Positions 48,166 through 62,058 of a DNA stretch of 64,000 nucleotides are shown here, one piece after another; positions within the stretch are counted from its first letter, which is position 1, and the number at the start of each line of letters is the position of its first letter. Made by a program: the position numbers and the translations under genes. The notes under the pieces are model-generated. The model was not told the origin of the DNA, searched no databases, and was given only the letters and a program-made list of their open reading frames with translations. Source of the stretch: Acidobacteriota bacterium (GTDB taxonomy: Bacteria > Acidobacteriota > Vicinamibacteria > Vicinamibacterales > UBA2999). The DNA is taken from assembly GCA_963169195.1 (NCBI GenBank), contig CAUJDN010000045.1, positions 1 through 64,000 on the forward strand, given 5' to 3'.

Positions 48166-48260
48166 TGGCGGTGAGGGAGGGATTCGAACCCTCGGTAGGA
48201 CTTTAAAGGCCCTACAACGGTTTAGCAAACCGCCGCCTTCAGCCTCTCGGCCACCTCACC
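48166..48260 (-). tRNA. tRNA-Ser (anticodon GCU)
   Basis: A class II tRNA on the minus strand, 5' end at 48260. The acceptor GGTGAGG pairs with CCTCACC, the anticodon loop is in GGTTTGCTAAACC (anticodon at 48226-48224), a long variable arm follows, and the T loop is GGTTCGAATCC. Discriminator G and an encoded CCA are at 48169-48166. Accessory DNA begins just beyond its 5' end. Confidence 0.97.
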
Positions 48261-48592: not shown

Positions 48593-49282
48593 TTATGGTA
48601 CCGCTGTTGCGTCAGCCTTGAGCGCCGCCTCCACGAACTCACGACACACTGCGAGATTCTTGGACTTGTCCGCGAGTTCAAGAGACGTACAGGCGTCGAC
48701 AATCTCAGGGCGGACAGTCCGAATCGCCTGCCCAACATTCGATGGCGTAAGCCCGCCAGCGAGCACGACGGGAATCGAAACGCTCCTGACGATTTCCGCA
48801 CAGATGAGCCAATCGTTCGTTCGTCCAGTGCACCCAAATACGTTCGCAGCCGACGGATCGACACAGGTATCGACTGTCAGTGCGCCGGCATAGCGCGCGT
48901 ACTCGACCGCTCTCTCGAGCGACGGTAGTATCGCAGACGAGCCGTTGACCCGCACAGGAACCGACATCATCAATCTTGTGGCCGGAGCGATCTCTTCGGA
49001 AAGCAGCGACATCTCAGCGTCATTTCGATCCGAAGATAGCAGAAGAAAATCCGGTCGCACCATTCTCGCGATCGTCGCCAGCACCTTCCGCTTTCGACTA
49101 TGAATCAAGAGCGTACTGATGCGCCCGGCCTCACGTACCAAGTCGGCGATCTGCGCAGCCAGCACCATCTGCTCTCTGTCTTGTGGGCGGACATCCCATG
49201 CGACATGAGTTGTGCCCATTTCGATAAGTGCCTTCGTTTCACCGAGGGATGGGCGACGGCAATAGATCTGGACTCCCGGCAT
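48593..49282 (-). CDS. TrpF-like (phosphoribosylanthranilate isomerase) barrel protein
   Basis: 229 aa. Features of phosphoribosylanthranilate isomerase are kept: a Cys at residue 8 (VQIYCRRPS, cf. the catalytic Cys of KICGI), the acid strand LTVDTCVD, FGCTGRTNDWLI, PVVLAGGLTPSNVGQAI for phosphate binding and EIVDACTSLEL near the end. There is no trp operon here: the gene is last in a unit after the PRTase-like and MazG-like genes, and its ATG shares a base with the stop of the PRTase-like gene (TGATG). Its substrate is therefore probably another phosphoribosyl compound made by that neighbour (inference). Confidence 0.75.
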   Translation of the reverse strand: MPGVQIYCRRPSLGETKALIEMGTTHVAWDVRPQDREQMVLAAQIADLVREAGRISTLLIHSRKRKVLATIARMVRPDFLLLSSDRNDAEMSLLSEEIAPATRLMMSVPVRVNGSSAILPSLERAVEYARYAGALTVDTCVDPSAANVFGCTGRTNDWLICAEIVRSVSIPVVLAGGLTPSNVGQAIRTVRPEIVDACTSLELADKSKNLAVCREFVEAALKADATAVP

Positions 49283-51312
49283 CAAAACCCCTCGCGCTGG
49301 TACAGTTCCACGGTTGAATTGTTGTGAATGCACTCCAGAATACGTCGACGCGAGAGCGAAAATACTCCGATCGGGTTGGTGTATTCGGCGCGTGACCAAC
49401 TTCGAGCAAACGGCGTCTCCGCAATGTAGCCGCCTATGTGATTCGACAAGAAGTCCGGATCAATGGCCCCGCTTCTCTCCATCAACATTTGTGCGTGCCG
49501 GCGTTCACCGCTATAGCGCGTCACATAGATCCGAATGTCCCCGGCGGAGCGAAGCAAGAGCTCGTCGCGGAGCCGCTCCAACGTGGTTCCCGTCAAGGTA
49601 TTGTCGTCCAGGAGAATTGCGGGGTTGCCGCCAAGGTTCAGCTCATCCTCTGTGTGAACTGGGAAGTGGTACCACGCGACGTTCTTGTGTGGTCCCCGAT
49701 AATGACTCCACACAGCGACATGAAGCAGCCGACGTTGCTGGGATGCTCGCAACGAGCACACGTAGTCGAATACCAGCGGCAGCTCAATCCCTCCCCACCC
49801 GATCCCAACGGCATGAATCGTTGCGTCAGACTGTGCCGCCTCGGAAGCGAGGGCGGCGACTAGCAAGTTCTCGCCAGGATGGTCGGCCTCACGCCAGCGC
49901 CGCACAAGGGATGGGTACGGCGGCGCGTCATGAAGCCCCTTTCCCTCTCGAGCGGCTGAAATGCATTGGCTGCAGTCGTGGAGAAGCCGTCTGACGCTCT
50001 CGCCTTCCGAGCTGATGATAGCCAGCAGCCTTTGCATGGAAGCCTGCATCTCATCGAATCGACGAAGCAGGCACGAGTAGTAACCTCGCACAGCGTGCGA
50101 TAACAAACCGTGAATCCGGGCGTCCTGATTACCCCAGAGGCTTTTGAATCGGGACTCGAACTGACCTATCTGGGTTGGCCCGGTGTGTACAAACAGATAA
50201 AGCTGGAGCGCTGCGCTGCGAACTTGGTCAAAGAATCCGAGTAGCAACTGCCACTCGATATCGTCCTGAGGCCGCCACTCGAACAGCGCCCCGCAGACAG
50301 GACTCCAGCTCTCAGCGAGTTCACCCCACATGCTTTCAAGACGCCAAAAGGCAGAGGCGTTACGCATGTTGACGTAGTACTGTTCCCCACGCAGCAGCAC
50401 CTTAGTCGGCGTGTAGAGGATCCGACGCATGCACGGCCGATCGTCCTGCCAAAAGTCTTGAAGTCGTGCCTGAAAGTAGGGGACCAGCCGGCCATTTGCG
50501 ATCGCTGAACTCCGAGCCCCGGCTTGTCGCCATTCATGCGGTGAGAGGCAAATTGCACCCGAGCGTGGATCAAAAAAGCGGCGCACTCGTGGCTCGTCGA
50601 CGCCCGCGATCTCCTTCAGCAGACGAGACGCCTCCCGTTGGTTTCGCGCGGCGATTTCAGCAACGGCGCTGAACCGATCGAGAATCGACCCGTTGCGGAT
50701 CTCCTGAGCCGTCTCAGCCACATTGATTCGCTCGCCGAAGTGCAACGTTGACAAGAACGTCGTGAGGTCGTCACCCTCACCTCGAAGGTCCGCTGGCAAG
50801 AACGCGACGCCGCCTCCCACATACACTTGCTTCTTCGGAGCGCTCAGCACGGGCGGGGGCACCAGCGGCCTGTCAACGTTAAGGCCGACACGAACTGCCG
50901 CGAACAGGGGAATAAACGGGTCTTCCTCGGAGTGTCCGACCAAGATGATCTGGCTCGGCCGAATTCCATCTTCGCGAAGTCGGGTGAGCAGCCCTTTGCT
51001 GTCGGCCGGGTCCTGCAGCAGATGGACAAGTCTTTTCGGCGTGGACGAATCCGCCGATGGCAAAGATCGCGAATGAAGCCAGTATACGAACACTCCTTTG
51101 TCAGTCAGATTTCTGACGAGACGAGCTACTGCTCCGGATTCCGCCGCCGCTTCGCTGATCACGATTACATGAAGGACCTTGCTGGCAAGGTCACCTAGCC
51201 ATCGGGCTAGTTCAACCTGTCCATCCTTGCGAATCTCGTAGCTAGCTGCTCGGGAGCCAACGCGCTCCGCGTAGCGCTGTACGATCGACTCAAGGTCTTC
51301 CTTCGCCGTCAT
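49282..51312 (-). CDS. 676-aa protein with C-terminal phosphoribosyltransferase motif
   Basis: A PRPP-binding loop is clear at residues about 566-578 (AILLDDNTLTGTTLE), the type I phosphoribosyltransferase signature; HVAVWSHYRGPHKNVAWYHFP just before it fits the same fold. The N-terminal 150 residues look Rossmann-like (VLHVIVISEAAAESGAV, SQIILVGHSEEDPFIPLFAA); the second phrase resembles HAD motif IV but no DxDxT motif I is seen. The middle, some 350 residues, is helical with Trp-rich parts (RLESMWGELAESWSPVCGALFEW) and unknown. Overlaps of 4 nt upstream and 1 nt downstream tie it to the MazG-like and TrpF-like genes. It may synthesise or salvage a ribosyl metabolite. Confidence 0.7.
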   Translation of the reverse strand: MTAKEDLESIVQRYAERVGSRAASYEIRKDGQVELARWLGDLASKVLHVIVISEAAAESGAVARLVRNLTDKGVFVYWLHSRSLPSADSSTPKRLVHLLQDPADSKGLLTRLREDGIRPSQIILVGHSEEDPFIPLFAAVRVGLNVDRPLVPPPVLSAPKKQVYVGGGVAFLPADLRGEGDDLTTFLSTLHFGERINVAETAQEIRNGSILDRFSAVAEIAARNQREASRLLKEIAGVDEPRVRRFFDPRSGAICLSPHEWRQAGARSSAIANGRLVPYFQARLQDFWQDDRPCMRRILYTPTKVLLRGEQYYVNMRNASAFWRLESMWGELAESWSPVCGALFEWRPQDDIEWQLLLGFFDQVRSAALQLYLFVHTGPTQIGQFESRFKSLWGNQDARIHGLLSHAVRGYYSCLLRRFDEMQASMQRLLAIISSEGESVRRLLHDCSQCISAAREGKGLHDAPPYPSLVRRWREADHPGENLLVAALASEAAQSDATIHAVGIGWGGIELPLVFDYVCSLRASQQRRLLHVAVWSHYRGPHKNVAWYHFPVHTEDELNLGGNPAILLDDNTLTGTTLERLRDELLLRSAGDIRIYVTRYSGERRHAQMLMERSGAIDPDFLSNHIGGYIAETPFARSWSRAEYTNPIGVFSLSRRRILECIHNNSTVELYQREGF

Positions 51313-51686
51313 GGCGCCGGATATCGAGCGGCATTCTTCTTCAGTTTGCTGCGAATAACCGCGGGCAGATCAATCTTGTAGCGAGAAGTGAAATTCAGAA
51401 GATAGATTGCGATGTCCGCGAGCTCCTCTTCGATCGGCTCGCGAGTATCGGCCGAGCCAAGGCGCAAAAGTTGCTCTTCTGGCGATTGCCACAAGAAGCA
51501 CGAGACTAGCTCTGCAGCCTCAACTGATAGCGCGGCCGCGAGGGCCGCAGGCGTGTGCGTCGGTCCCCAGTCGCGAGCGCGGTTGAATTCCGCGATCTCG
51601 CGCTCCAGAGCCTCAATCGTCGCTGCTGCTTCTGGGGTTCCTATGCTCGTCGCGTGCGGAGCCGATGAGGGAGACGCGTCGGCCAT
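51309..51686 (-). CDS. MazG-like nucleotide pyrophosphohydrolase
   Basis: 125 aa. LSVEAAELVSCFLW and EPIEEELADIAIYLLNF give the ExxE...ExxD metal motif of all-alpha NTP pyrophosphatases (MazG/dUTPase/RS21-C6 type). The N-terminal 25 residues are low-complexity. The enzyme should convert an NTP or dNTP to NMP and pyrophosphate. Its stop overlaps the ATG of the PRTase-like gene by 4 nt. It is the first enzyme of the three-gene unit; a TTG-started small frame overlaps its 5' end. Confidence 0.78.
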   Translation of the reverse strand: MADASPSSAPHATSIGTPEAAATIEALEREIAEFNRARDWGPTHTPAALAAALSVEAAELVSCFLWQSPEEQLLRLGSADTREPIEEELADIAIYLLNFTSRYKIDLPAVIRSKLKKNAARYPAP

Positions 51687-51867
51687 GCTCGTAACCGTCT
51701 ACGTAGGAGAGGCTCGACGGTCGGCAGGAGAAGCCGTTCATCGCATCCTCGAAACCTCTGTCGTATGCCTCGGCCTCGCTTGTTTGCGATTTCGAGTCGT
51801 AGTGCTTGTGGTCGGCCTTCAGATCCACTGGGCTCTCCGCTTCTTCGGTACGGCCAGAATGGTTCAA
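51613..51867 (-). CDS. Possible small protein resembling ribosome modulation factor
   Basis: 84 aa from a TTG. The segment EAYDRGFEDAMNGFSC...YVDGYEHGRR has the AYxxGxxDAxxG / YxxGYxxG spacing of RMF-like small proteins. It overlaps the first 74 nt of the MazG-like gene in another frame, and no ribosome binding site is seen, so it may be a gene whose end was overrun or just a chance frame. Confidence 0.35.
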   Translation of the reverse strand: MNHSGRTEEAESPVDLKADHKHYDSKSQTSEAEAYDRGFEDAMNGFSCRPSSLSYVDGYEHGRRVSLIGSARDEHRNPRSSSDD

Positions 51868-52115: not shown

Positions 52116-53276
52116 TCATTGCCCAAGAACGCCGCGCCGCGTTTCCAATCGCCTCCGGGCATCTCGAAGGTCTCCGTCACTCACGATGTTGTAACGGTCG
52201 AACACGCTTCTCGTCTTGTGCCCGGACAGCTTCATCGCCACACGCTCCGGAATCCCGGCCCGGACCATGTTCCGGACAGCCGTCCGCCGAAGGTCGTGCG
52301 GGATGCTGCCCGGCCGGCCGGCGTCGACCCGCGCCCGGCACCAGGCGTGGTAGAAGCCGCTCGGCGCGATTCGCCGCCCGGCCTCGAATACCGGCTCGCC
52401 GACCTGGGTCCGTCCATCGTGGAAGAACACGTGCTGAACGATCATGCCCTTCTCGCGCTGGATTCGGTTCGCTGCCTTCCGCTGGTCGGCGAGTAGCTTC
52501 TTCAGCTCGGGCGTCAGATAGAACACTCGCCCCTCGAGGTTCTTCGTCGTGCCGGGATCCAGTCGGACCTCGCCGGCCTTCAGGTCCACCTGGCGCCACT
52601 CCATCGGCAGGACTTCGCTGTTGATGCGCCACCCGGTGACGTACGCGAACGTGACGACCGGGCGCATGCACGCCGGCAGGTGCTCCAGCATCGCCAGGTA
52701 GTGCTGGTGTTCGAGGAACCCGGCGCGCACGTTGTTCTCCCGCAGCATCGGGAAGTGCGGCTTGTGTGTCAGCTTCCCAGCCTGGATCGCCAAGCTGAAC
52801 ATCCGCTTCAGCGCGGTGAGCTCGCGGTTGATCTCGCCCGCCGACACCGCGCGGCGCTCCTCGGGCGTGTCCGGCGCGACGGCGCTCTTGCCTTTCCGAC
52901 GCTGACGGACGACAGAGCCCTCGGCCTGCCGCTTCGCGACGTAGGCGCGGAGGTCCGCCGTCGTGATGGCGATCATTCGCCGGTTGCCGAAGTACGGCTC
53001 CAAGTGTTTCCGGATTCGCCGTCGCACGTCGTCGAGCGTCTTCTTGCCGTTCATCGAGTAGTCGTTCAGGAGGTCGACGACGGCCTCCTCGAACGTGATG
53101 CGCCCGGCGTCGGGGTCGACGGGGATGCCCTTCACAATGTCGCCTTCGCGCGTCTTCAGCATGCGACGCGCGTCGGCGATGATCGTGGTCTCGGTGCTCT
53201 CACGGATCACGCGCCCGTGCTGCACGTACTTGATCCAGAACTTCTTGGATCCTTTGCGTAGATACACGCTGCCCAC
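52116..53276 (-). CDS. Tyrosine recombinase (integrase)
   Basis: 386 aa starting at GTG 53276 with AGGAGG five nt upstream. An arm-binding-like start (GSVYLRKGSKKFWIKYVQHG) and a SAM-like core-binding domain precede the catalytic domain. Catalytic residues: Arg in YVTGWRINSEVLPMEW, Lys near GTTKNLEGR, HDLRRTAVRNMV (His-x-x-Arg), SGHKTRSVFDRYN (His and nucleophile Tyr). All are present, so it should be active. It cuts and rejoins attachment sites of the element; the excisionase-like gene lies 146 nt upstream on the same strand. Confidence 0.92.
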   Translation of the reverse strand: MGSVYLRKGSKKFWIKYVQHGRVIRESTETTIIADARRMLKTREGDIVKGIPVDPDAGRITFEEAVVDLLNDYSMNGKKTLDDVRRRIRKHLEPYFGNRRMIAITTADLRAYVAKRQAEGSVVRQRRKGKSAVAPDTPEERRAVSAGEINRELTALKRMFSLAIQAGKLTHKPHFPMLRENNVRAGFLEHQHYLAMLEHLPACMRPVVTFAYVTGWRINSEVLPMEWRQVDLKAGEVRLDPGTTKNLEGRVFYLTPELKKLLADQRKAANRIQREKGMIVQHVFFHDGRTQVGEPVFEAGRRIAPSGFYHAWCRARVDAGRPGSIPHDLRRTAVRNMVRAGIPERVAMKLSGHKTRSVFDRYNIVSDGDLRDARRRLETRRGVLGQ

Positions 53277-53772: not shown

Positions 53773-54087
53773 TCACCTCGCCTCCGCGCTCACGTTGTCG
53801 TGGACATGCGTCTCGTACGCGTGCAGGAGCAGGCTCCGGATGTGCTGCTGTGCGCTTGGGTCGTCGATGGCCCGGAGCAGCGCGAAGTTCTTGCGGTCGC
53901 CGTGCACGATGAACTGGCGCGACGGGAACGAGACGCTGAAGCCCGGTCCGTCTCGCCGCTCCCAGATGGCGAAGCCCACGAGCTTCATGCCCGCGAGCTC
54001 GCCGGCGTTGAAGTGGATCTCCGCGTCGGCCAGCTTGCCGGCCGGTCTGCCCTGTTCGTTCAACAGAATCTTGACTTCGATGCTCAT
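53773..54087 (-). CDS. Small protein, paralogue of the 57500-57820 product
   Basis: 104 aa from ATG 54087 with AGGAGG seven nt upstream. The shared core with its paralogue is PAGKLADAE, GMKLVGFAIWERR and FPxRQxxVxGxRxxFALLR. The strand pattern and F-P-S/A-R turn are faintly reminiscent of SpoVG-type proteins, but I cannot assign the family. It lies in the run of small element genes between the primase and the excisionase. Confidence 0.6.
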   Translation of the reverse strand: MSIEVKILLNEQGRPAGKLADAEIHFNAGELAGMKLVGFAIWERRDGPGFSVSFPSRQFIVHGDRKNFALLRAIDDPSAQQHIRSLLLHAYETHVHDNVSAEAR

Positions 54088-54110
54088 GACGGTCCTCCTG
54101 AAGTGGTCGT

Positions 54111-54485
54111 CTACGCGTGGGCGAGTTCGGGCTCGAGCTGCGGGGCGCCGATACGGCTCCACAGCCAGTGCTGCAAGGTGTCCAGGCCGACCAGGACGGG
54201 ATCGGCCGGCGTGAAGAGGTGCTTCGCCTGGCGGTACCGCGCGCGCTGCCAGGCGAGCTCGTTATTGGTCACGAGGACGAGTCGCGCGGGCTCGCGCGCC
54301 CGAGCCGCGTCGAGCGCCACCGGATCGGCCGCCATGCCCGAGACGTCCGAGAGCGGTGCCGCATAGAGCGTGAGCGTCGCTGGTGCATCCAGCGCCGTTG
54401 GTGCCGTGGTGACGAAGGCGTGATACAGCCGCGTCTCGCGTCCGATCGCGACCTCGATGCACGGTGTTCGTGTGCAACGGTCCAT
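54111..54485 (-). CDS. Hypothetical element protein
   Basis: 124 aa, ATG 54485 with AGGAGG five nt upstream. The sequence has a beta-rich first half (ATLTLYAAPLSDVSG) and a helical second half (ELAWQRARYRQAKHLF, LVGLDTLQHWLWSRI). I do not recognise it. It precedes the SpoVG-like paralogue by 23 nt, so the two are probably cotranscribed. Confidence 0.55.
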   Translation of the reverse strand: MDRCTRTPCIEVAIGRETRLYHAFVTTAPTALDAPATLTLYAAPLSDVSGMAADPVALDAARAREPARLVLVTNNELAWQRARYRQAKHLFTPADPVLVGLDTLQHWLWSRIGAPQLEPELAHA

Positions 54486-57499: not shown

Positions 57500-57820
57500 T
57501 CAGGACGCAGCCTCCTGGCCCGAGTAGGCCTCGAGGATGGCGTCCCTGATCGCCTCCTGCGCGCTCACGTCCCCGTTCGCGGGACGCAGCAACGCGAAGC
57601 TCCGACGTTCTCCATTGACGGAGTACTGTCGGGCTGGGAACGTGACGTTGCGCCCTCCAGCACGTCGTTCCCAGATGGCGAAGCCGACCAGCTTCATGCC
57701 GGTGAACGGGCCGGCGCCGGCTTCGAAGATCACCTCCGCGTCGGCGAGCTTGCCAGCGGGCGTGCTCGACGTGTTTGGAAGGATCCGGACAGACATCAAC
57801 TCTGTCTTCTGCTTGGACAT
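57500..57820 (-). CDS. Small protein, paralogue of the 53773-54087 product
   Basis: 106 aa from ATG 57820 with AGGAGG five nt upstream. It shares PAGKLADAE, GMKLVGFAIWERR and the FPARQ/FALLR phrase with its paralogue, but has a GAGPFT insert and a different C-terminus (AQEAIRDAILEAYSG). Two diverged copies 3.5 kb apart suggest either heteromer partners or separate regulation. Family unknown. Confidence 0.6.
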   Translation of the reverse strand: MSKQKTELMSVRILPNTSSTPAGKLADAEVIFEAGAGPFTGMKLVGFAIWERRAGGRNVTFPARQYSVNGERRSFALLRPANGDVSAQEAIRDAILEAYSGQEAAS

Positions 57821-59224: not shown

Positions 59225-60583
59225 ATGGCATCCCGACGCGGCTCCCGGCGCCCGAAGACGATTTCCGCCACCGGCGTCACCGGCCAGAAGGGCATCAACC
59301 TAATCGAACGCGTTGTCCTGGAAATGGAGTCGCGCTGGACGCCCAGCGGCCCGAACGAAGTCGGCATCGACGGCTACATCGAGCTATTTGATCCAGCGAG
59401 CCGTAAGGCTCTCGGCCTGACACTCGCCGCGCAAAGCAAGGTCGTCAACGCAATCGTCGACTCCGGTCCCACGTTCGACTATCGCTGCGAACCTGCTGAT
59501 GTGGAGTACTGGCTGAGCGGAAACACGCCGGTGATCCTCGTTGTTTCCGCAACAGCCGGCAGCGAAGCCTATTGGGTGTCCGTCAAGGATCACTTCAGGG
59601 GTTGGACTCCAACTGCTTCCACGACTGTCACGTTCACAAAAGCGAAACAGCGCTTCACCAAGCATTCACTTGCGGATTTGATCAAGGTTGGCGCGCCTCG
59701 CGGCGGGCTGCATCTGTCGCCTGCCCGCAAGACCGAGAAACTGCATACGAACCTGCTGCGAGTGGACGCTTTTCCCGAACGTCTGCATCTGGCGCGCACT
59801 GACTGCCGCTGGCCGAGCGACGTCTGGCCTCTCCTGCGCAAAGGAAAGCGCAACCCGGACTCGGGCTGGGTGCTCCGGGACAAAGCGATCTTGTCCTTCG
59901 ACGACCTGAGTGATGAGCTATGGTCGGAAGTCTGCCAGGAAGGCACCGTCGAGAGTTTCCTGTCGACCGATTGGTCTGAATCCAACGATCCCGATCGCCA
60001 GCGGACCTTCGTCCAACTCCTCAATCAGGCCTTGCGCGCGCAGCTCTGGCCCGAGGTGCGCTACTGGCCGAAGGAAGGGTGCTTTGCCATGACGGGCAAG
60101 CCGCGCAAGATTGCCTATGGCTCGTTGCGCCGCAAGAGCCGCATCACCGTTGTCTCGCAGTTCTCGAAGACGGCCGACGACGGACGCGTTTTTGAGTGGC
60201 GCCGGCACATGGCGTTCCGCGGCTACTTTCGTCAACTCGAGGGCGAGTGGTTTCTGGAAATCACGCCGACCTATCGCTTCACTCGTGATGGATTCGAGCT
60301 CGACATGTTCCACGAGAACCGTCTCAAGGGCATCAAGCAGCTTGAGGGCAACCGCGCCGTTCTGAGCTGCGTCTTGTTCTGGGCCGATTACCTGCGGCCG
60401 CGAACGGACCTCTTCGCGGGCCACGCGCCACCGCTCCGCTTCGGTGAACTGGCGGTTCTCGATTGCCCTGTGGGCATCGATGACAAGCGCTGGCTGTCCG
60501 ATGATCCAGATTTCGGCCAGCAGGCGGCACAGGAGGCGGCGGCGGTCGATGTGCCTGACCTCGAGGACCTGTTTAGCCAATGA
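59225..60583 (+). CDS. DUF4365 (DREN) nuclease-APAZ effector of a short Argonaute system
   Basis: 452 aa. Residues 20-140 form a PD-(D/E)XK-type DUF4365 nuclease domain: INLIERVVLEME (Glu28), NEVGIDGYIEL (Asp49) and LTLAAQSKVV (Gln70-x-Lys72), so the catalytic set is intact. The rest, about residues 150-450, is the APAZ region that binds the Argonaute and replaces its N/PAZ side (HTNLLRVDAFPERLHLA, RITVVSQFSKT, WFLEITPTYRFTRDG). The stop overlaps the pAgo ATG (ATGA). Known SPARDA systems use such a nuclease, switched on by guide-directed recognition of invader DNA, to degrade nucleic acids and kill the cell. No ribosome binding site is visible at ATG 59225. Confidence 0.85.
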   Translation: MASRRGSRRPKTISATGVTGQKGINLIERVVLEMESRWTPSGPNEVGIDGYIELFDPASRKALGLTLAAQSKVVNAIVDSGPTFDYRCEPADVEYWLSGNTPVILVVSATAGSEAYWVSVKDHFRGWTPTASTTVTFTKAKQRFTKHSLADLIKVGAPRGGLHLSPARKTEKLHTNLLRVDAFPERLHLARTDCRWPSDVWPLLRKGKRNPDSGWVLRDKAILSFDDLSDELWSEVCQEGTVESFLSTDWSESNDPDRQRTFVQLLNQALRAQLWPEVRYWPKEGCFAMTGKPRKIAYGSLRRKSRITVVSQFSKTADDGRVFEWRRHMAFRGYFRQLEGEWFLEITPTYRFTRDGFELDMFHENRLKGIKQLEGNRAVLSCVLFWADYLRPRTDLFAGHAPPLRFGELAVLDCPVGIDDKRWLSDDPDFGQQAAQEAAAVDVPDLEDLFSQ

Positions 60584-62058
60584 AGCTGACATTCTTCAAG
60601 GAACCGGAACTGGAGTTTGGCGGCGGCGGAACGCATGTTGACATGCGTTACGGCCTTGCGCAGTACGGACCACTGGATATCGGCGACACGAAGGCGCCAA
60701 CGCAGCTTCGCCTCGGTCTCATCGGTACCGACGAGACTATTAGTGCGATGCGCCAGTGGCTTGAGCGGTGCGAGCCCGGAATCGAGCGCAAGGCGAGCAA
60801 GCTCGTCAACCTGTTCCCGAGTTTCCCAGGCTTTACGAACGACGTCGCGTTCCGCTCGTCGCTTGTGTTTCACGATCGCTGGTGCGCGCCAATTCGTCAG
60901 CGCGAGATTGACGCCGTCATCGCCCACAGCGACGGCGACGAGACCGTGCGGCAGTCGGTCGCGATGTTCGTCGACCGCGCCGGTGATCTCGTCGAGCAGG
61001 GCGGCCCGATGGTTCTGGTTTGCCTGCCGCCGCACGACCTTCTCGCGGCCGTCGACGAACGGCGTGGCCCGCCGGACCTAGATGCACAGGAGATCGATGA
61101 GGGGTCAGAATCGGGCGATGGACATTTGCCCCCAACGATTGACTTCCACGATCTTCTTAAGGCTGAGGGAATGCGTTTGACCGTACCGTTCCAGATGGTC
61201 CGGCCGAAGACCTATGGAGGCGCGCAAGGAAAGACGAAACAGTGGGGCAAGAAGAAGAAGACGAGCACGCCGCTTCAGGACGAGGCGACGCGCGCCTGGA
61301 ACATTCATACCGCCCTCTACTACAAGGCCGGAGGCATTCCGTGGCGGCTACTGCGCGATGCCGCAGAGCTGACCACCTGCTTCGTTGGCATCAGCTTTTA
61401 TCGCACCTTGGACAAGGCTCGGCTGCTGACGAGCGTTGCCCAAGTGTTCAACGAGCGCGGCGAAGGCGTCATCGTCAAGGGCGCACAGGCTCAGCTCGAC
61501 AAGGACGACAAGACGCCGCATCTGTCCTCGGCCGACGCGCACGCCTTGCTGAAACAGGCGATTAGCGTCTACCGGCGCGAGCACAGGACAAGCCCGGCGC
61601 GCATCGTGGTGCACAAAACCTCACGAGTCCTGCTGGAGGAGGCCGAGGGCTTCAACGCGGCCGCCAGGGAGCAGGCGATCGACACCGTTGAGATCCTAAC
61701 AGTGCGTCGCTCCTTCTCGCGCGCGTTTCGCGAAGGTACCTATCCGCCACTGCGCGGGACTCTGATCGAGCTTCAGAAGGCGAGCGGGTTGCTTTACCTC
61801 AAGGGCAGCGTGGATTTCTTCCGCACGTACCCCGGGATGTACGTGCCCCGTCCGCTAGAGTTCAACGTTCACTGCGCCGAAACGCCGCTACCGCAGCTCG
61901 CCGGCGAGATGTTGGCCCTATCCAAATTGAACTGGAACAACACGCAGTTCGACGGCGGCGAGCCGATTACCGTCCGGGCCGCGCGGCGCGTGGGCGACAT
62001 CCTCAAGTGCGTTGCCAACAACGGACCGGTCCAGCCGACGTTCCGCTTCTTTATGTGA
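60580..62058 (+). CDS. Short prokaryotic Argonaute (MID-PIWI)
   Basis: 492 aa. The N-terminus LTFFKEPELEFGGGGTHVDMRYGLAQYGPLDI is the standard start of short pAgos. A MID-like half follows (MVLVCLPPHDLLAAVDE), then the PIWI half: TTCFVGISFYRTLD, RIVVHKTSRVLLEEAEGF, SGLLYLKGSVDFFRTYPGMYVPRPLEF and LALSKLNWNNTQFDGGEPITVRAARRVGDIL. The catalytic DEDX tetrad of long Argonautes is not apparent, as is normal for this class, so target cleavage falls to the partner. It forms a complex with the product of the overlapping upstream gene. Between its stop and the next gene, convergent, are 191 nt without an identified feature. Confidence 0.9.
   Translation: MKLTFFKEPELEFGGGGTHVDMRYGLAQYGPLDIGDTKAPTQLRLGLIGTDETISAMRQWLERCEPGIERKASKLVNLFPSFPGFTNDVAFRSSLVFHDRWCAPIRQREIDAVIAHSDGDETVRQSVAMFVDRAGDLVEQGGPMVLVCLPPHDLLAAVDERRGPPDLDAQEIDEGSESGDGHLPPTIDFHDLLKAEGMRLTVPFQMVRPKTYGGAQGKTKQWGKKKKTSTPLQDEATRAWNIHTALYYKAGGIPWRLLRDAAELTTCFVGISFYRTLDKARLLTSVAQVFNERGEGVIVKGAQAQLDKDDKTPHLSSADAHALLKQAISVYRREHRTSPARIVVHKTSRVLLEEAEGFNAAAREQAIDTVEILTVRRSFSRAFREGTYPPLRGTLIELQKASGLLYLKGSVDFFRTYPGMYVPRPLEFNVHCAETPLPQLAGEMLALSKLNWNNTQFDGGEPITVRAARRVGDILKCVANNGPVQPTFRFFM

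Follow-up and report, generated by a model that had tools for sequence, protein, structure and literature searches.

Organization and composition of the operon

The stretch of DNA analysed here, referred to as the window, comprises 64,000 nt of contig CAUJDN010000045.1 (assembly GCA_963169195.1) from an Acidobacteriota bacterium of the UBA2999 lineage, and all positions are those of the window. We examined three adjoining genes on its minus strand, which encode a MazG-like pyrophosphohydrolase, a 676-aa protein with a phosphoribosyltransferase (PRTase) motif, and a barrel protein resembling TrpF, the phosphoribosylanthranilate isomerase (PRAI). The genes, and one possible additional open reading frame (ORF), are as follows.

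51613..51828, minus strand: possible small first gene, 71 aa, with a GTG start and the sequence AYDRGFEDAMNG...GYEHGRR; an ORF only, and uncertain
51309..51686, minus strand: MazG-like protein, 125 aa, an all-alpha nucleoside triphosphate (NTP) pyrophosphohydrolase of the dCTP pyrophosphatase 1 type (PF12643)
49282..51312, minus strand: 676-aa protein, with homologues L055 and L071-L075
48593..49282, minus strand: TrpF-like protein, 229 aa from the ATG, a PRAI-like TIM barrel (PF00697) outside the canonical TrpF clade

Transcription runs from the MazG-like gene (51686-51309) through the gene of the 676-aa protein (51312-49282) to the TrpF-like gene (49282-48593). The stop codon of the first gene and the start of the second share the 4-nt overlap ATGA, and the stop of the second meets the ATG of the third in TGATG, with a 1-nt overlap. 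Order, strand, coordinates and overlaps are as described in an earlier reading made from the sequence alone (the sequence-only reading), and a co-transcribed architecture is supported. All three genes have a G+C content at third codon positions (GC3) of 0.62-0.65. The adjacent histidine-kinase gene, the only gene of host type for which GC3 was determined, has 0.92, and the neighbouring integrase has 0.87. As GC3 differs from that of both neighbours, the operon was acquired from elsewhere, probably not together with the adjoining integrase; the horizontal acquisition proposed earlier is thus supported. Chance can be dismissed as the source of the three ORFs because the matches to PF12643 and PF00697 exceeded the cut-offs and true homologues of the 676-aa protein exist. 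The three genes are a real, co-translated enzyme operon of foreign composition. The 71-aa ORF could be a fourth gene of the operon: GGAG precedes its GTG start, and it overlaps the MazG-like gene by 74 nt. Its relatives were sought in plasmids and none was found.

The MazG-like protein matched PF12643 with an E of 3.5e-11 (43.6 bits, for a cut-off of 27), and its closest match in the PDB was dCTP pyrophosphatase 1 (E 2e-15). It shares with that enzyme and with PF12643 the length, the fold family and all the catalytic motifs (ExxE...EExxD...KxxxNxxRYP), present here as EAAE (56-59), EEELAD (86-91) and KLKKNAARYP (114-123); it differs in its operon setting. On profile score and motifs, the first gene encodes a MazG-like NTP pyrophosphohydrolase, as had been proposed.

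The 676-aa protein, a putative phosphoribosyltransferase

The 676-aa protein consists of an unclassified N-domain (residues 1-~190), a helical core (~200-460) and a PRTase domain (~466-676). The motifs that characterize it are listed below; PRPP denotes 5-phosphoribosyl 1-pyrophosphate and PPi pyrophosphate.

49867..49893, minus strand: READHPGEN, with which the helical core ends; its R-E-x-D...E-N residues are invariant in the family alignment
49777..49794, minus strand: GGIELP, at the position of the PRTase PPi loop, with G507, G508, E510, L511 and P512 invariant
49579..49614, minus strand: PRPP-binding loop LLDDNTLTGTTL, residues 567-578, with D569, D570, N571, G575 and T577 invariant
49486..49524, minus strand: VTRYSGERRHAQM, which follows the PRPP loop and carries a conserved R...R..Q motif, with R599, R605 and Q608 invariant

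The PRPP-binding loop pointed out in the sequence-only reading was confirmed. It follows the 13-residue type I PRTase pattern hhhhDDxxxTGxT, whose D569, D570, G575 and T577 were invariant in seven sequences. A pattern of the motif occurred once in the window and in 0 of 100 shuffles. Across the same seven divergent sequences (the window protein and six relatives) GGxELP and the PRPP loop were invariant. When the 676-aa protein was compared with Pfam, NCBIfam, PADLOC and PHROGs, no profile matched, and nothing usable was obtained from the PDB; the expectation that it would match no housekeeping or catalogued defence family therefore held. The PRTase domain alone gave an E of 0.17 against PF00156, below the cut-off, while two relatives matched this profile (best E 4e-4). 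Against PDB sequences the domain gave only sub-threshold matches, namely four hypoxanthine PRTases (E 0.26-1.2), and a profile search of the PDB gave no significant match. Judged by these motifs, the 676-aa protein is predicted to have a type I PRTase fold. By eye, the N-domain resembled a degenerate HAD domain that has lost its acids; this candidate was rejected, the hhalign score lying below that of 24 of 30 shuffles.

Relatives and their gene neighbourhoods

Relatives were sought in genome contigs with a nucleotide pattern that encodes the PRPP loop, hhDDN[TSA]xTGxTh. This yielded 24 stretches, one of which (L055, from an Erysipelotrichaceae metagenome-assembled genome) encodes a true homologue, with a blastp E of 1e-24 and 22% identity over 508 aa. 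Homology to the L055 family was also detected by phmmer (E about 1e-19) and hhalign (98.9% over 389 columns). In L055's family (Erysipelotrichaceae-type) 8 of 150 genomes had the gene; it was usable in six (L055, L071-L075), and in two only a C-terminal remnant was left, beside or near a PfkB-SIS gene. The family signature comprises RG..YY and R-E-x-D...E-N in the helical core, and GGxELP, DDNxx(T/S)GxT and R.....R..Q in the PRTase domain.

Other searches were negative, and the gene is rare outside this family of genomes. In single-sequence searches the 676-aa protein had no match among 59 relatives, 396 genomes of the phylum, plasmids, phages and viral contigs, nor did an exact-peptide scan of genome contigs give one. 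The family profile had no true match in 398 Pseudomonadota genomes: one 643-aa open frame matched it, but just across the HAD region, and was discarded. Nor did the profile match anything in 388 genomes from the phylum to which a Lacrimispora genome belongs. Viral contigs matched the motif patterns by chance only, in proteins of phage structural type.

In five of the six usable relatives the N-terminus is a HAD phosphatase domain with DIDGT, in place of the unclassified N-domain of the window protein. In L055 and L071-L074 the homologue comes after a WYL regulator and (in all but L074) a small HAD gene, with a PfkB-SIS fusion directly after it or a few genes on (the L055 stretch covers only the PfkB part); DHH, APH or NUDIX genes occur at some of these loci. 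The clusters thus resemble the window operon in having the same helical core and PRTase domain, encoded co-directionally with phospho-sugar enzymes, and differ from it in their partners. Serine recombinases and WYL regulators adjoin some homologues, and the neighbours are mostly chromosomal metabolic genes. No description of these clusters of Erysipelotrichaceae-type genomes was found in the literature. The sixth usable relative, L075, is a divergent 568-aa homologue with a short other domain at its N-terminus and no HAD domain. Its locus (L075:6796-10849) represents a third partner set, in which acetyltransferases of the GNAT and CAT types accompany a small HAD encoded on its own and an unclassified protein of 234 aa, nucleotidyltransferase-like by eye.

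As the homologue loci have HAD, PfkB-SIS and WYL genes instead of MazG and TrpF-like genes, we regard the 676-aa protein as a member of a new PRTase family with exchangeable partners, for which Pfam, NCBIfam, PADLOC and PHROGs have no entry. Across the differing partner sets one theme is constant, namely enzymes for phosphorylated sugars and nucleotides.

The occurrence of homologues without the other two genes, the high divergence of the TrpF-like protein and of the N-terminal parts, and the short PRTase remnants in two relatives would all fit accidental neighbours, that is, three cargo genes of an island with separate house-cleaning or catabolic roles, or a decaying PRTase. We consider this very unlikely, because the genes overlap by 4 and 1 nt and share a GC3 distinct from that of both neighbours, all frames are open, and the MazG and PRTase motifs are intact.

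The TrpF-like protein

The C-terminal motifs of the TrpF-like protein lie together:

48677..48874, minus strand: VDT (position of the catalytic Asp), GCTGRTNDW, GGLTPSN and VDACTSLE

The protein matched PF00697 with 33.8 bits, above the cut-off, and its likeness to canonical TrpF consists of the homologous TIM barrel, the general-acid Asp of VDT and the phosphate loop (GGLTPSN for GGLTPxN). It differs in having VQIYC for VK[IV]CG, so that the Cys stands one residue later and aligns only through a one-residue insertion; in TNDW; in DACTSLE for DVSSGVE; and in its tree position. The claim that the catalytic features of PRAI are kept therefore stood for the Asp and the phosphate loop and fell for the Cys, which is displaced by one or lost, and for the SSG loop, which is changed. 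In the tree, the canonical TrpF clade (support 100/99) excluded the window protein (approximately unbiased test, p 0.034), which has a very long branch (3.1) and groups weakly beside other TrpF-like proteins that are not from trp operons. The genome's own TrpF is encoded with trpC and trpB on another contig (C32), so the TrpF-like gene does not serve tryptophan synthesis; the earlier interpretation is supported on this point. When 193 genomes of the class were searched, no orthologue of the TrpF-like protein appeared, only canonical or other TrpF matches.

Other TrpF-like proteins were encountered. A second type of paralogue occurs in the window's class (L004, L008, L014, L015, L016, L020), with VK[IV]CC for VK[IV]CG and HDW for FDW; together with a gene from a Sphingomonas plasmid it makes up a clade apart. 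In Rhizobiaceae (L026, L077, L078) a VQIY-type protein annotated as PRAI lies beside a MurR/RpiR regulator and a sugar ABC transporter; these are probably not PRA isomerases.

Outside trp operons, TrpF-like genes are paired with upp on plasmids of A. vitis, C. aurimucosum and S. lavendulae. In these pairs (L079:3731-5107, L080:3824-5154 and L082:5001-6446, from Agrobacterium, Corynebacterium and Streptomyces plasmids) the TrpF-like Cys is replaced by Ala (VQVAG). As in the window, a TrpF-like barrel without a clear catalytic Cys stands beside a PRTase, with no trp operon; unlike in the window, the PRTase is a Upp, the TrpF-like proteins form a separate clade, and at least two pairs have a biosynthetic-cluster setting. 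The C. aurimucosum pair lies in a pigment cluster resembling that of indigoidine synthesis (PMC2830990), the S. lavendulae pair adjoins a PRPP synthetase and a pseudouridine-phosphate-glycosidase-like gene, and in minimycin synthesis the Upp MinD gives self-resistance (PMC8724604). Since enzymes of the DCTPP1 type are house-cleaning pyrophosphatases, the operon might likewise make or detoxify a nucleoside-like compound, such as a C- or N-nucleoside antimetabolite, with the MazG-like enzyme clearing toxic triphosphates. Such specialised metabolism seems to us rather improbable: no nonribosomal peptide synthetase, glycosidase, transporter or PRPP synthetase gene adjoins the operon, its PRTase is not a Upp, and its TrpF-like protein falls outside the Upp-linked clade.

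Genomic setting and comparison with PRTase-based defence systems

The following features lie near the operon.

48166..48260, minus strand: tRNA-Ser(gct), 0.3 kb downstream of the operon
52116..53276, minus strand: intact tyrosine integrase of the neighbouring element (PF00589, E 4e-17)
59225-62058: short prokaryotic Argonaute (pAgo) of class I, paired with a nuclease/APAZ protein of the DUF4365 type; defence pairs of this kind are known

The operon had been placed in a tRNA integration hotspot, beside an integrase stub and next to the element that carries the defence system. Neither the hotspot nor the stub, nor a link with the pAgo element, was borne out. The supposed stub was only a DRYNV-like scrap (E 2.2, not significant). 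A search for att-like direct repeats of the tRNA-Ser or around the integrase element found none, so the tRNA was rejected as an att site, and the integrase/pAgo element differs from the operon in GC3. Within that element, two related small ORFs of unknown family (53773-54162 and 57500-57820, minus strand) contain repeats of 61 nt and 51 nt that are ~80% alike.

A phage-defence role of the operon is possible. Ter clusters use PRTases together with HAD enzymes for a proposed nucleotide-like signal (PMC7824862), and in the manner proposed for those PRTases the operon might act as an anti-phage or stress module that makes such a signal or depletes PRPP or NTPs on infection. The foreign composition, the nearby integrase and pAgo system, the presence of MazG-type domains among predicted defence proteins (PMC13092281), and the WYL regulators and serine recombinases beside some homologues agree with this. 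We nevertheless regard such a module as unlikely, and its earlier proposal as unsupported: no PADLOC model matched any of the three proteins or two relatives, the operon lacks genes for a sensor, a nuclease, a membrane protein or a toxin, the integrase/pAgo element has another GC3, and the neighbours of homologues are mostly metabolic. The likeness to the Ter system lies in the idea of a PRTase with accessory enzymes making a nucleotide-like compound; the operon has no Ter gene, no Ter profile was found among the neighbours scanned, and the 676-aa protein matched no Ter PRTase profile.

With PRTase-CE (PF24390) and the retron III-A PRTase the operon shares a PRTase domain in a mobile setting. 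Their partners (SIS-HAD, PfkB, NADAR) are unlike those in the window, and the window protein matched neither PF24390 nor PADLOC PRTase_III-A, whereas Rhizobium L060 did. Around that PRTase-CE gene, plasmids of Rhizobium and Sinorhizobium (L060:1758-9251 and L061:1258-8789) have a conserved set comprising a P-loop ATPase, a triple-CARF protein, a SIS-HAD fusion, a PfkB kinase and a convergent NADAR gene. The SIS, PfkB and HAD proteins recall the ADP-heptose pathway, and no description of the set was found in the literature searched.

A candidate PRPP-dependent pathway

The reading we favour, to which we give an about even chance of being correct, is that the operon is a horizontally acquired, co-translated enzyme set for a PRPP-dependent metabolite. 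It is suggested by the invariance of GGxELP and of the PRPP loop across seven sequences, two of which match PF00156; by the sub-threshold PDB matches of the PRTase domain, all of them hypoxanthine PRTases; by the recurrence of TrpF-like/upp pairs outside trp operons; and by the intact MazG motifs and overlapping starts. The homologues that sit with HAD, PfkB-SIS, DHH, APH, NUDIX and WYL genes point to phospho-sugar or nucleotide metabolism.

In the proposed scheme, the 676-aa protein would most likely transfer the 5-phosphoribosyl group from PRPP to a base or an amine. The TrpF-like barrel would bind the resulting adduct through the phosphate of its phosphoribosyl group, then rearrange or process it, and the MazG-like enzyme would cleave either an NTP or an intermediate triphosphate, giving a monophosphate and PPi. 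The PRTase activity, the substrate, the order of the steps and the product are all predicted, as is its use, which might be that of a signal, an antimetabolite, a cofactor or a modified nucleotide. In histidine synthesis HisG, HisE and HisA are the same three kinds of enzyme acting in sequence, HisG and HisE coming from different branches of the respective superfamilies or having analogous folds. The operon would copy the logic of histidine and tryptophan synthesis outside those pathways, with a PRTase, an all-alpha pyrophosphohydrolase and an isomerase of the HisA/TrpF fold.

Several points weigh against this reading. The PRTase fold is assigned from sequence only: AlphaFold2 models of the full 676-aa protein (single sequence) and of the PRTase domain (with one homologue) had pLDDT values of 36 and 31 and were unusable, and the N-terminal ~190 aa are unclassified. 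With its long branch and its displaced or lost Cys, the TrpF-like protein may not be an active isomerase, and a MazG-like enzyme of the DCTPP1 type may be a plain house-cleaning enzyme. The trio of MazG, PRTase and TrpF-like genes was seen once only. The sequence-only reading had named homologues lacking the other two genes as evidence against itself, and neither a MazG nor a TrpF-like gene was detected at any of the eight homologue loci, even at E up to 10. Because all eight other loci lack both partners, a conserved three-gene module is unsupported.

A broader form of the PRPP-dependent reading, which we offer as a speculation with a low chance of being right, is that the PRTase family lies at the centre of a mix-and-match pathway making a ribose-phosphate-derived signal or antimetabolite for stress or conflict, bacteria differing in the enzymes attached (HAD and PfkB-SIS, or MazG and TrpF-like).

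The family thus gains a usable signature (RE.D...EN, GGxELP, DDNxxTGxT and R...R..Q) and two partner sets, each predicting PRPP chemistry that can be tested. TrpF-like barrels that work with PRTases in settings other than tryptophan synthesis also deserve notice. Should the product be a signal or an antimetabolite, the operon would add chemistry to PRTase-based systems that have so far been inferred from genomes only.

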